Source: Rhizobium rhizogenes (GTDB lineage: Bacteria > Pseudomonadota > Alphaproteobacteria > Rhizobiales > Rhizobiaceae). From it: 64,000 nucleotides of DNA. Location: the NCBI RefSeq assembly GCF_002005205.3, contig NZ_CP019701.2, forward strand, positions 930,001-994,000. The letters run 5' to 3'. Each line of letters starts with the position of its first letter. Position 1 is the first letter of the stretch. The translations under genes were made by a program, and so were the position numbers. The notes beneath the pieces are model-generated. The model saw only the letters and a list, made by a program, of their open reading frames with translations. It was not told where the DNA came from and did not search any database. Shown here in pieces: positions 30,608 through 35,283 of this stretch.

Positions 30608-31291
30608 ATGGCAAAAAAAACAGTGCTGCGGCTTACTGGCGTTGAGAGGACCTATGGTCAGGGCGAGACGTCGCTATCGATCCTGCGCAAGGCCGATTTT
30701 GAATTGAGGAGCGGCGAGATGGTGGCGCTTGTCGCCCCTTCCGGCACGGGTAAATCCACGCTCCTGCATCTGGCCGGGTTGCTGGAGCATCCCGATGCAG
30801 GCGAGATCTTCATCAATGGTGCGCCCTGTCAGGGGCTGCCGGACGAGACGCGCACCGCGATCCGTCGCAGCGATATCGGCTTTGTCTATCAGTTCCATCA
30901 CCTCCTGCCGGAATTTTCCGCCGTGGAAAACGTGATGATGCCGCAGCTGATCGCCGGCCTTGCTCCGGCGGAGGCGCACAAGCGCGCCAGCGCGCTGCTC
31001 GACTACATGCGTGTCGGCCATCGTGGTGAACACCGTCCGGCCGAACTTTCCGGCGGTGAACAACAGCGTGTGGCCATTGCGCGTGCCGTCGCCAATGCGC
31101 CACTGCTGCTGCTTGCGGACGAGCCGACCGGCAACCTCGACCCCGAGACCGCGCATTATGTCTTCGACGCGCTGGAGGCGCTGGTGCGGCAATCCGGCCT
31201 TGCGGCACTGATCGCCACCCATAACCACGAACTCGCGGCCCGGATGGACCGACGCGTGACGCTCGCCGACGGCAAGATCGTCGATTTCTGA
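30608..31291 (+). CDS. lolD: Lipoprotein-releasing system ATP-binding protein
   Basis: A 227-residue ABC ATPase that powers lipoprotein release. The Walker [13 protein letters not shown] (about residue 42), Q-loop region [16 protein letters not shown], signature [14 protein letters not shown] and Walker [13 protein letters not shown] are all intact. It is 15 bp downstream of lolC and is followed by a terminator. Confidence 0.97.
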
Positions 31292-31414
31292 TCGGCCGAA
31301 CATTCCTCCGAATTGCCGTGCCGCCGCCAGCGCGGATAGCGTGCGCGGCCGGGATTCGCTCCGGTCCTGATCAGTAGGGTCGGCATCAGCTCTTTCATAT
31401 CTGCATTTTTTGGC

Positions 31415-31446
31415 AACCCGGAGGTGTTTTTTCCTCCGGGTTTTTT
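31415..31446 (+). terminator. Rho-independent terminator after lolD
   Basis: AACCCGGAGG (31415-31424) pairs with CCTCCGGGTT (31433-31442) and is followed by a run of T to 31446. It insulates lolCD from the LexA-controlled unit downstream. Confidence 0.9.
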
Positions 31447-31534
31447 CGCTTTGGAGTCAGGGGTTTGCCGAAAATGTGAACGGAACCGCGGCTGATTCTG
31501 CGGCGTTAGCAAGGGGAATATCAGCAAAACCCTG

Positions 31535-31569
31535 TTGACAATCGAACAAAATGAGAACAAAGTTGGAAC
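31535..31569 (+). promoter_or_regulatory. Promoter with tandem LexA (SOS) boxes
   Basis: Three GAAC repeats at 31544, 31555 and 31566 are each separated by exactly 7 bp. Read on the minus strand this is GTTC-N7-GTTC twice, the known alphaproteobacterial SOS box. A TTGACA at 31535-31540 would serve as the -35 element, so LexA bound here should block RNA polymerase. The -10 is less clear. The first ORF after it is a 28-residue peptide, then dnaE. Confidence 0.8.
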
Positions 31570-31590
31570 ATAACGAGTAAGGAGAGACCA

Positions 31591-31677
31591 ATGACTGATT
31601 TCATCCGTGACGTTGCCGCTTTCGCCTCCATCGCTGTCTTTGTGGCCAGCTTTTCGGTGATCCTCACCGCCCTGTGA
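31591..31677 (+). CDS. SOS-controlled 28-residue membrane peptide
   Basis: A short ORF starting MTDFIRDVAAFAS with a hydrophobic stretch filling residues 8-28 (SIAVFVASFSVILTAL at the end). The shape is a charged head with one membrane helix. An AAGGAG ribosome site lies 6 nt before the ATG, and tandem LexA boxes lie 22 bp upstream. The Caulobacter SOS protein SidA is a 29-residue inner-membrane peptide that blocks division; size, topology and control match, but I have not compared sequences. It is separated from dnaE by 105 bp with no terminator, so dnaE may be read from the same promoter. Confidence 0.7.
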   Translation: MTDFIRDVAAFASIAVFVASFSVILTAL

Positions 31678-31782
31678 AGGAGATACCGGCGCAGAAGCCT
31701 GTATGGCCACCGCAAGGCTGTAGACTTTGAGCGCCGGAAATCGGAAAATCGCCCCCTCGATTCAGAATGACAGGATGACGAT

Positions 31783-34700
31783 ATGGGCGATACGGTTGTG
31801 CGTGCAGAGATCTCTGACAAAACGCTGAAGACGCCGGGTTTTGTTCATCTGCGGGTTCATTCTGCCTATTCCCTGCTTGAGGGGGCGTTGCCCCTCAAGA
31901 AAATCATGTCCAAGGCCGTCGCGGATGGCCAGCCGGCCATCGCCATTACCGATACCAACAACCTCTTCGTCGCGCTGGAGTTTTCCGAAAAAGCGCGCGA
32001 TGAGGGTCTGCAGCCGATCATCGGCTGCCAGCTGTCGATCGACATGCAGGATGCGGCGGAGGACCGCCGCAGCCACAACAGCCATCTTCAGAAACTTCCC
32101 GCCATCGTCCTTCTGGCCGCCGATGCCGAGGGTTATGAGCGGCTGGTGGATCTCGTCAGCCGCGCCTATCTGGAAGGCGAGGGCAGTGGCCATTCCGTGC
32201 ATATCACCCGCGCATGGCTGGAGGAGGCCTCCAATGCCGGGCTGATCGCGCTCACGGGTGCTACCGGCGGTCCGGTCGATATGGCACTGAAGGAAGGCCA
32301 TGCCGCGCAGGCGAAAGAGCGGCTGCTGGCACTGAAGTCGCTCTTCGGTGACAGGCTTTACATCGAGTTGCAGCGTCAGTCCGGTTATGACCGCTCCCAT
32401 GAGCGGCGCCTGATCGGCCTTGCTTATGAACACGATATTCCCCTCGTTGCCACCAACGAGGCGTTTTTCCCTTCCAAGGCCGATTACGAGGCGCACGACG
32501 CGCTGATGGCGGTGGCGCATAACGCCATCGTTTCCGATGACAACCGGTTTCGCCTGACGCCGGATCATTACCTCAAAAGCCGCGAGGAGATGACGGCGCT
32601 TTTTGCCGACCTGCCCGAGGCGCTGGAAAATACCGTCGAGATTGCGCTGCGCTGCTCCTATGTGCTGAAGAAGCGCGGGCCGATCCTGCCGCGTTTCACC
32701 GGCGCCAGCGACGACCCGGAGGCGGCGGAACGCGCCGAAGCCGAGGAGCTTCGCCGGCAGGCGGTGGAGGGGCTGGATCAGCGTCTCGCCGCACTTGGCA
32801 TGGCGCCGGGTTATACGGAGCAGGAATATCGCGAGAGACTGGATTTCGAACTCGGCGTCATCTCGCGCATGAAATTCCCCGGCTATTTCCTCATCGTTGC
32901 CGACTTCATCAAATGGGCCAAGCAGCATGACATTCCGGTTGGCCCGGGCCGTGGTTCGGGTGCCGGCTCGCTCGTCGCTTATGCGCTGACGATCACCGAC
33001 GTCGATCCGCTGCGTTTCTCGCTGCTGTTCGAACGCTTCCTCAATCCTGAACGCGTATCGATGCCCGACTTCGATATCGACTTCTGCCAGGATCGCCGCG
33101 AAGAGGTGATCCGCTACGTGCAGGCCAAATATGGCCGTGAGCAGGTGGCGCAGATCATCACCTTCGGTTCGCTGCAGGCACGTGCGGCCTTGCGCGACGT
33201 CGGCCGCGTGCTGGAAATGCCCTATGGGCAGGTGGACAAGATCTGCAAGCTGGTGCCCAACAACCCGGCCAACCCGACGCCGCTGTCAAAAGCGATCGAG
33301 GAAGAGCCGCGCCTGCAGGAAGAGGCGGACAAGGAGCCGGTCGTCGCCCGCCTGCTGGATATCGCCCAGAAGATCGAAGGGCTTTACCGCCACGCTTCCA
33401 CCCATGCCGCCGGTATCGTCATCGGTGACCGGCCGCTCTCCAAGCTGGTGCCGATGTATCGCGATCCGCGATCCGATATGCCGGTCACCCAGTTCAACAT
33501 GAAGTGGGTCGAAAGCGCCGGTCTCGTCAAATTCGACTTCCTCGGTCTGAAGACGCTGACGGTGCTGAAGGTCGCCGTCGATTTTGTCGCCAAGCGCGGC
33601 ATCACGGTCGATCTTGCCGCCATTCCGCTGGAAGACGCCAGGACCTACGAGATGCTGTCGCGCGGCGAAACCATCGGCGTGTTCCAGGTGGAAAGTGCCG
33701 GCATGCGCAAGGCGCTGATCGGCATGCGCCCCGACTGCATCGAGGACATCATCGCGCTGGTGGCGCTTTATCGTCCCGGCCCGATGGAGAACATCCCGGT
33801 CTATAATGCCCGCAAGCATGGCGAGGAGGAGCTGGAATCGATCCATCCGACCATCGACCATCTGCTCAAGGAAACGCAGGGTGTTATCGTCTATCAGGAA
33901 CAGGTGATGCAGATCGCCCAGGTTCTGTCGGGTTATTCGCTCGGCGAAGCCGATCTTCTGCGCCGCGCCATGGGCAAGAAGATCAAGGAGGAGATGGACA
34001 AGCAGCGCGAGCGCTTTGTCGATGGCGCCATCGAGAACGGCGTCTCGAAGCCGCAGGCCAACACCATCTTCGACCTTCTCGCGAAATTCGCCAATTACGG
34101 CTTCAACAAGAGCCACGCCGCCGCCTACGCCATCGTGTCCTACCAGACCGCCTATATGAAGGCGCATTATCCGGTGGAGTTCCTGGCGGCCTCCATGACA
34201 CTCGATATGGCCAACACGGAAAAGCTCAACGATTTCCGTCAGGATGCCGGCCGCCTTGGCATCGAGGTCGTCGCACCTTCGGTGCAGACCTCGTTCCGGC
34301 AATTCGAGACGGGCGAGAACCGCATCTATTATTCGCTGGCGGCCATCAAGGGTGTGGGCGAGGGCGCGGTGGAGCACATCGTTCAGGTACGCGACGGCAA
34401 GCCGTTCACGAGCCTTGAGGATTTCTGCCTGCGCATCGATCCCAAGCAGATCAACCGGCGTGTGCTGGAAAGCCTCATCAATGCCGGCGCTTTCGATTGC
34501 TTCGGCCGTGATCGCGCCGAACTGATCGGTGGGCTGGACCGCATCATCGGTTATGCCCAGATGGCGCAGAACAACCGCACCATCGGCCAGTCGGACATGT
34601 TCGGCTCGGGTGGCGGCAATGGCCCGGAGAAGCTGGTCCTTCCCGCCTTCCAGCCCTGGCTCGCCTCGGAAAAACTGCTGCGTGAATATCAGGTGCTCGG

Positions 34701-35283
34701 TTTTTACCTCACCGCCCATCCGCTCGATACCTATCGTCCCGTGCTGGAAAAACTGCGCGTGCAGAATTTCGCCGATTTTTCCGCCGCGGTGAAACAGGGC
34801 GCCACCGCCGGGCGTCTGGCCGGCACCGTCACCGGCAAGCAGGAACGCAAGACCCGCACCGGCAACAAGATGGGTATCGTCACCTTCTCGGACGCATCGG
34901 GCCAATACGAAGCGGTGCTGTTTTCCGAAGGGCTCGGCCAGTTTCGCGATCTGCTGGAGGTCGGCAAATCGCTTGTTATCACCGTGCAGGCCGAAGAGCG
35001 TCCGGAGGGCATCGGCCTGCGTATCCAGACGGCGCAGTCGCTGGAAGAAAAATCCGTGCAGATGCAGAAGGCGCTGCGCGTTTATGTGCGCGATTCCGGC
35101 CCGCTGAAAACCGTTGCCCGCCACCTCAACACCAGGGGCGACGGCTCTGTCTATTTCATCGTCATCAAGGATGAAGGCAGCCGCGAGATCGAGGTGGAAT
35201 TGACGGAGAAATACCGTATTTCACCCGAGATCGCCGCTGCCCTGCGGTCCGCGCCCGGTGTCGTGGATGTGGAACTGGTGTGA
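31783..35283 (+). CDS. dnaE: DNA polymerase III alpha subunit
   Basis: The 1166-residue replicative polymerase. The N-terminal PHP domain starts HLRVHSAYSLLEGALPL; the palm carries the catalytic aspartates in MPDFDIDFCQDRREEV (Asp-x-Asp) and GPGRGSGAGSLVAYAL; a helix-hairpin-helix, beta-binding and OB-fold region make up the end. Length and the PHP residues fit housekeeping DnaE1 rather than the shorter error-prone DnaE2. An AGGATGACG site precedes the ATG. The upstream LexA boxes may add SOS control to its transcription. Confidence 0.97.
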   Translation: MGDTVVRAEISDKTLKTPGFVHLRVHSAYSLLEGALPLKKIMSKAVADGQPAIAITDTNNLFVALEFSEKARDEGLQPIIGCQLSIDMQDAAEDRRSHNSHLQKLPAIVLLAADAEGYERLVDLVSRAYLEGEGSGHSVHITRAWLEEASNAGLIALTGATGGPVDMALKEGHAAQAKERLLALKSLFGDRLYIELQRQSGYDRSHERRLIGLAYEHDIPLVATNEAFFPSKADYEAHDALMAVAHNAIVSDDNRFRLTPDHYLKSREEMTALFADLPEALENTVEIALRCSYVLKKRGPILPRFTGASDDPEAAERAEAEELRRQAVEGLDQRLAALGMAPGYTEQEYRERLDFELGVISRMKFPGYFLIVADFIKWAKQHDIPVGPGRGSGAGSLVAYALTITDVDPLRFSLLFERFLNPERVSMPDFDIDFCQDRREEVIRYVQAKYGREQVAQIITFGSLQARAALRDVGRVLEMPYGQVDKICKLVPNNPANPTPLSKAIEEEPRLQEEADKEPVVARLLDIAQKIEGLYRHASTHAAGIVIGDRPLSKLVPMYRDPRSDMPVTQFNMKWVESAGLVKFDFLGLKTLTVLKVAVDFVAKRGITVDLAAIPLEDARTYEMLSRGETIGVFQVESAGMRKALIGMRPDCIEDIIALVALYRPGPMENIPVYNARKHGEEELESIHPTIDHLLKETQGVIVYQEQVMQIAQVLSGYSLGEADLLRRAMGKKIKEEMDKQRERFVDGAIENGVSKPQANTIFDLLAKFANYGFNKSHAAAYAIVSYQTAYMKAHYPVEFLAASMTLDMANTEKLNDFRQDAGRLGIEVVAPSVQTSFRQFETGENRIYYSLAAIKGVGEGAVEHIVQVRDGKPFTSLEDFCLRIDPKQINRRVLESLINAGAFDCFGRDRAELIGGLDRIIGYAQMAQNNRTIGQSDMFGSGGGNGPEKLVLPAFQPWLASEKLLREYQVLGFYLTAHPLDTYRPVLEKLRVQNFADFSAAVKQGATAGRLAGTVTGKQERKTRTGNKMGIVTFSDASGQYEAVLFSEGLGQFRDLLEVGKSLVITVQAEERPEGIGLRIQTAQSLEEKSVQMQKALRVYVRDSGPLKTVARHLNTRGDGSVYFIVIKDEGSREIEVELTEKYRISPEIAAALRSAPGVVDVELV

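Follow-up and report, generated by a model that had tools for sequence, protein, structure and literature searches.

The window analysed here, a stretch of 64,000 nucleotides from Rhizobium rhizogenes (contig NZ_CP019701.2, positions 930,001 to 994,000; source genome of 5.48 Mb in 3 contigs), carries, in this order, lolD, a terminator-like hairpin, a TTGACA element, a triplet of GAAC words, an AAGGAG ribosome-binding site, a 28-codon open reading frame (ORF), a spacer of 105 base pairs (bp) and dnaE. We read the ORF, with a probability of roughly 80%, as the ortholog of Caulobacter sidA, a gene that would be repressed by LexA, would halt septation via FtsW and is probably co-transcribed with dnaE. 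The features of the locus are as follows:

31415..31442, + strand: terminator-like hairpin with a 10-pair stem and a T tract, 3′ of lolD
31535..31540, + strand: TTGACA, a −35-like element; TTGAC is invariant in 25/25 same-genus loci
31544..31558, + strand: predicted LexA box 1, GAAC-N7-GAAC (GTTC-N7-GTTC on the other strand), exact in 15/25 same-genus loci
31555..31569, + strand: predicted LexA box 2, interlocked with box 1, exact in 24/25 same-genus loci
31579..31584, + strand: ribosome-binding site AAGGAG; GGAGAG (31580-31585) is invariant in the 25 same-genus loci
31591..31677, + strand: probable sidA ortholog with ATG at 31591, predicted 28-residue single-helix membrane peptide MTDFIRDVAAFASIAVFVASFSVILTAL
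31686..31737, + strand: weak spacer hairpin, CCGGCGC (31686-31692) with GCGCCGG (31731-31737), no T tract
31783..35283, + strand: dnaE, replicative DNA polymerase III alpha, ATG at 31783, the next gene and likely co-transcribed

Much of this layout had been described in a first-pass annotation of the same sequence, and most of it holds: three GAAC words at 7-bp spacing (31544, 31555 and 31566) form two interlocked boxes, the 28-codon ORF is preceded by its ribosome site, and the hairpin with T tract lies after lolD as the sole terminator-like site in 31280-31800 (0.8 expected in shuffles). The boxes had also been said to overlap the TTGACA element; instead, they begin 4 bp past the hexamer and fill the spacer behind it. 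A promoter scan of 31280-31800 yielded no sigma-70-type candidate at its threshold, and the −10 element is therefore weak or atypical. The terminator-like hairpin would set the SidA-type unit apart from upstream transcription and make it self-contained. The identity of dnaE was established by a TIGR00594 match (1216.7 bits, at G000:C1:961840-964923).

The 28-codon ORF is a real gene whose amino-acid sequence is under purifying selection. A peptide search returned a match in all 25 same-genus genomes (own included) at 81-100% identity, and over the 23 distinct ORF sequences from these loci the ratio of nonsynonymous to synonymous change (pN/pS) was 0.137, compared to 1.20 when the same calculation was shifted by one base. 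The 31 variable sites fall 9/0/22 on first, second and third codon positions. Conservation with silent-site bias, on which the earlier proposal had been made to depend, is thus seen on both counts. The 28-residue product reaches a 15-residue hydropathy maximum of 2.53. Nine members of a first alignment (A1) had no match in Pfam, and against NCBIfam the same nine gave a single weak match (YmiC, E-value 0.068), to a member other than the window's. One further peptide match, at locus L029, was discarded as a chance match inside a 332-residue frame.

To place the peptide relative to SidA, we turned to a family (that of genome G525) chosen because its CtrA was nearest (89%) to a Caulobacter CtrA query; DnaE of L206, a locus of this family, is 74-79% identical to that of named Caulobacter, Phenylobacterium and Brevundimonas records. 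Members of this Caulobacteraceae-like family carry small ORFs, mostly readable as ~29 residues, directly before dnaE, and the ORF stands together with the box in named records of Phenylobacterium (L214, L218) and Brevundimonas (L215), while Maricaulis, Hellea, Stappia, Sneathiella and Bauldia records show small hydrophobic ORFs behind the box. At locus L296 the order is frames that resemble lolC and lolD by eye, a nucleoside hydrolase (PF01156, E-value 1.8e-78) on the opposite strand, the adjoining 29-residue ORF and dnaE. In Caulobacter, SidA is described as a 29-residue, SOS-induced inner-membrane division inhibitor that interacts with FtsW (PMC4211646); sidA is given as CCNA_02004 (PMC10769358), CCNA_02005 as an inosine-uridine nucleoside hydrolase (PMC3667746) and CC1926 as dnaE (PMC1839093), which would correspond roughly to CCNA_02003, judging from recN (CC1983 and ccna_02062). 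Because the L296 gene order fits these hydrolase and sidA tags, the Caulobacteraceae ORF of ~29 residues before dnaE is very probably SidA, an assignment resting on gene order in relatives and published tags.

The rhizobial peptides and those at the Caulobacteraceae sidA site are homologous. Two profiles were built separately, A2 from 15 Caulobacteraceae peptides (partly from the 30 surveyed loci of that family) and A3 from 19 Hyphomicrobiales peptides (from family and order loci), such that only crossed tests are independent. In hhalign, the two aligned with a probability of 85.8 (91.3 with the profiles reversed), columns 1-20 on 1-20 and ungapped, a score attained by none of 600 column-shuffled profiles. 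In 200 of these, only the helix columns were shuffled, and the best reached 22.06 vs 23.67 for the real pair; much of the signal therefore lies in the head. Upon crossed searching at 6 bits, A2 recognized the ORF upstream of dnaE in 19/32 own-family loci and A3 recognized it in 22/30 Caulobacteraceae-like loci, with no antisense and no shuffled match in either search; A2 additionally scored in 9/60 loci of the order sample. Both peptide sets share a core of a basic residue 6, an acidic residue 7, A10 and F17. The earlier suggestion of a SidA-type, LexA-controlled peptide, made on size, topology and control, has thus gained the sequence similarity that it lacked: the site before dnaE and the LexA-type box are the same, the lengths are nearly equal and the profiles agree from residue 1.

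The box pattern by itself is no evidence for LexA control, with 2 matches in 64 kb vs 2.36 expected by chance (genome-wide, 170 vs 74 for a backward-read control), and the argument is therefore carried by conservation. Among the 25 same-genus loci the central GAAC is as invariant as TTGAC; L014, the sole locus without an exact box, reads AAAC in its outer words and keeps the central one. Upstream of dnaE, exact GAAC-N7-GAAC was found in 13/95 loci of a class sample (window included; shuffled mean 0.86), in 16/30 Caulobacteraceae-like loci (0.28) and in 20/80 named loci (0.67), compared to 1, 0 and 0 for the reversed word. The genome encodes lexA, with GTTCCATATGTGTTC lying upstream of the lexA match, ~67 bp from its edge. 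Comparative genomics has previously counted dnaE among the SOS-regulated genes of alphaproteobacteria, with an earlier report for C. crescentus, and had thereby predicted a LexA site in front of this gene (PMC3323433).

Denominators for the joint occurrence of ORF and box were supplied by samples anchored on dnaE and hence drawn independently of the peptide; an ORF was counted when either profile scored at least 6 bits, and a box when GAAC-N7-GAAC was exact. Loci with both, ORF only, box only and neither numbered 20/2/0/10 in the own family (n=32; Fisher P-value 1e-6), 27/2/5/26 in the order (n=60; 7e-10), 6/1/7/80 in the class (n=94; 1e-5) and 16/10/1/3 in the Caulobacteraceae-like family (n=30; 0.29). 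In the order sample, 27/29 ORF-positive loci thus carry the exact box. No DnaE match at threshold was obtained for 47/142 genomes in the class survey and 1/61 in the order survey; in the Caulobacteraceae-like family 55/60 genomes matched, of which 30 loci were surveyed and two more (G637, G649) looked at. Profile matches at E-values up to 10 (176/199 and 175/249 genomes) include chance matches, and these totals were set aside in favor of the dnaE-anchored counts. A DnaE signature pattern was found in 46/59 loci (L026-L084) and absent in 13, and three genomes among the misses (G039, G052, G278) showed the ORF before dnaE in the later dnaE-anchored samples.

Several side observations accompany these counts. 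Four of the 7 class loci with a box and no scoring ORF (L095, L105, L144, L175) show, by eye, a small hydrophobic ORF, which was left uncounted. The small family genomes G045, G046, G083, G111, G130 and G132 (1.1-2.0 Mb) gave no or a poor peptide-profile match, which may reflect loss in reduced genomes; some larger family genomes (such as G057, G067 and G079) likewise gave none. In G069 the best peptide match (E-value 2.1e-5) lies on contig C52 and dnaE on C35; either the copy has moved or the match is due to chance.

Several results weigh against a sidA ortholog. Neither ORF nor box is present in 10/32 own-family loci, and in the class sample a scoring ORF was found in only 7/94 loci and neither element in 80/94. 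There, A2 performed no better than shuffles (3/94 vs 3 at 6 bits; 7 vs 6 at 4 bits), and A3 scored in 7/94 loci at 6 bits vs 1 antisense and 0 shuffled. Among Caulobacteraceae-like loci, the exact box is absent in 10/26 ORF-positive cases and the association is not significant (P-value 0.29); a named Caulobacter sp. record (L212) has the ORF and lacks an exact box, and L296, also without one, reads GAAC-N7-GAAT at the box position. Pairwise identity is low (7/28 by hand count vs the L296 peptide), the C-terminal third is unaligned and the Caulobacteraceae W19 is absent from the window peptide. Finally, the SidA letters were taken from relatives and gene order, not from the C. vibrioides sequence. 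Outside the family, the order and Caulobacteraceae-like lineages, the gene is patchy or unrecognizable, and rare (7/94 class loci).

In Caulobacter, SidA is reported to be under LexA control and to inhibit the FtsW/FtsI/FtsN complex (PMC4211646, PMC12700426). By analogy, LexA bound to the interlocked boxes would block the promoter between −35 and −10; upon DNA damage, RecA-stimulated cleavage of LexA would free it and allow the 28-residue peptide to be made, which would insert into the inner membrane as one helix and keep the late divisome (FtsW/FtsI/FtsN) inactive, delaying septation until repair. Transcription running on into dnaE would, at the same time, provide more polymerase III alpha. 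A SidA ortholog that has been retargeted to another septal partner in the polar-growing Rhizobiales is an unlikely variant of this scheme: the C-terminal part does differ, with the Caulobacteraceae W19-M20 stretch replaced, and growth in Rhizobiales is described as unipolar (PMC9022086), yet ftsW is present in the source genome.

For the sidA ortholog with FtsW as its predicted target, read-through into dnaE is probable, because the scan of 31280-31800 found no terminator-like site between ORF and dnaE, dnaE is counted as SOS-regulated (PMC3323433) and, in S. meliloti, a translated small ORF (sORF25) is reported inside the dnaE1 5′-untranslated region (5′-UTR) (PMC10117765). The read-through proposed in the first-pass annotation thus finds support, all of it indirect. 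The spacer hairpin (31686-31737) has a z of −1.74, and 11/200 shuffles fold as well; its CCGGCGC/GCGCCGG repeat encloses a second stem and occurs in several same-genus loci, being absent from more divergent ones. Separately, a GANTC motif (the CcrM methylation motif; GATTC at 31759-31763) lies ~20 bp before dnaE and is kept in 25/25 same-genus loci. Its middle base varies (T, C, A) among these loci while the site is kept, and selection therefore seems to act on the motif itself, a hint that dnaE may have its own methylation-linked promoter downstream of sidA. A GANTC lies near the dnaE match in 25/32 family loci (raw count).

The same region could be read as a leader or upstream ORF whose translation regulates dnaE by attenuation or coupling, the peptide sequence being of little weight. 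The position in the dnaE 5′ region and the existence of a spacer hairpin fit this idea, which has been raised for 5′-UTR small ORFs of S. meliloti with sORF25 named (PMC10117765). We consider it improbable, however, given that selection acts on the amino-acid sequence, that the ORF start lies anywhere between 156 and 794 bases from the DnaE signature (46 loci where found), that the hairpin is weak vs shuffles and that the ORF co-occurs with a LexA box. TisB is a small SOS-controlled single-helix peptide of another function. Least probable of all is a LexA-controlled membrane peptide of such a depolarizing type, akin to TisB or to DinQ (also small, SOS-controlled and single-helix with a different function; PMC3567139) and convergent with SidA, since reciprocal profile recognition, a common start register and a common site before dnaE would be unexpected under convergence.

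Taking the window ORF as a sidA ortholog, we lean slightly towards a wider reading in which sidA-dnaE would be an ancestral alphaproteobacterial damage-checkpoint operon, with one LexA-controlled promoter that stops septation and raises DnaE, kept in Hyphomicrobiales, Caulobacterales and some others, lost or diverged elsewhere, and unnamed outside Caulobacter. If true, direct tests of the SOS division checkpoint become possible in a large plant-associated group, a Sinorhizobium small ORF from ribosome profiling gains a function, the reported SOS control of dnaE is explained by its position behind sidA, and the checkpoint may be old and common to several groups of Alphaproteobacteria. Natural variation, furthermore, reveals the residues that are kept (basic 6, acidic 7, A10 and F17).

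Compared to known systems, the window locus is most like sidA of Caulobacter crescentus (CCNA_02004), with an SOS-type box, 28 vs 29 residues, one predicted helix and a site before dnaE; the window peptide and the Caulobacteraceae sidA-site peptides have in common, ungapped over residues 1-20, R6, an acidic residue 7, A10, S13, A15, F17 and V18. It differs in being ~25% identical to the L296 peptide, with a divergent C-terminal third and no W19. S. meliloti sORF25, a translated novel small ORF, occupies the same location in the same bacterial order (PMC10117765) and is, by position alone, probably the ortholog of the window ORF; SidA and LexA do not occur in the main text of that paper. The SOS regulation of dnaE described for alphaproteobacteria (PMC3323433) would be shared, except that the corresponding section gives dnaE itself as the gene under control and mentions no peptide lying between it and the box. 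Caulobacter also has DidA, a membrane inhibitor that is likewise induced by damage and acts on FtsW/I/N (PMC4211646); at 71 residues it is longer, and it is independent of SOS. YneA (Bacillus), SosA (Staphylococcus) and ChiZ (Mycobacterium) are also described as small membrane proteins that are induced by damage and inhibit late division, with FtsW contact shown for YneA and otherwise modelled (PMC13396833); YneA and ChiZ differ by a LysM domain, and none of the three is claimed as a homolog. Among the literature matches listed (titles, abstract starts and passages, a set to which the original SidA description in Genes Dev 2011 does not belong), SidA is not named outside Caulobacter. SidA itself is known; what is new is that the LexA site upstream of dnaE belongs to distant SidA members for which there is no Pfam or NCBIfam model.
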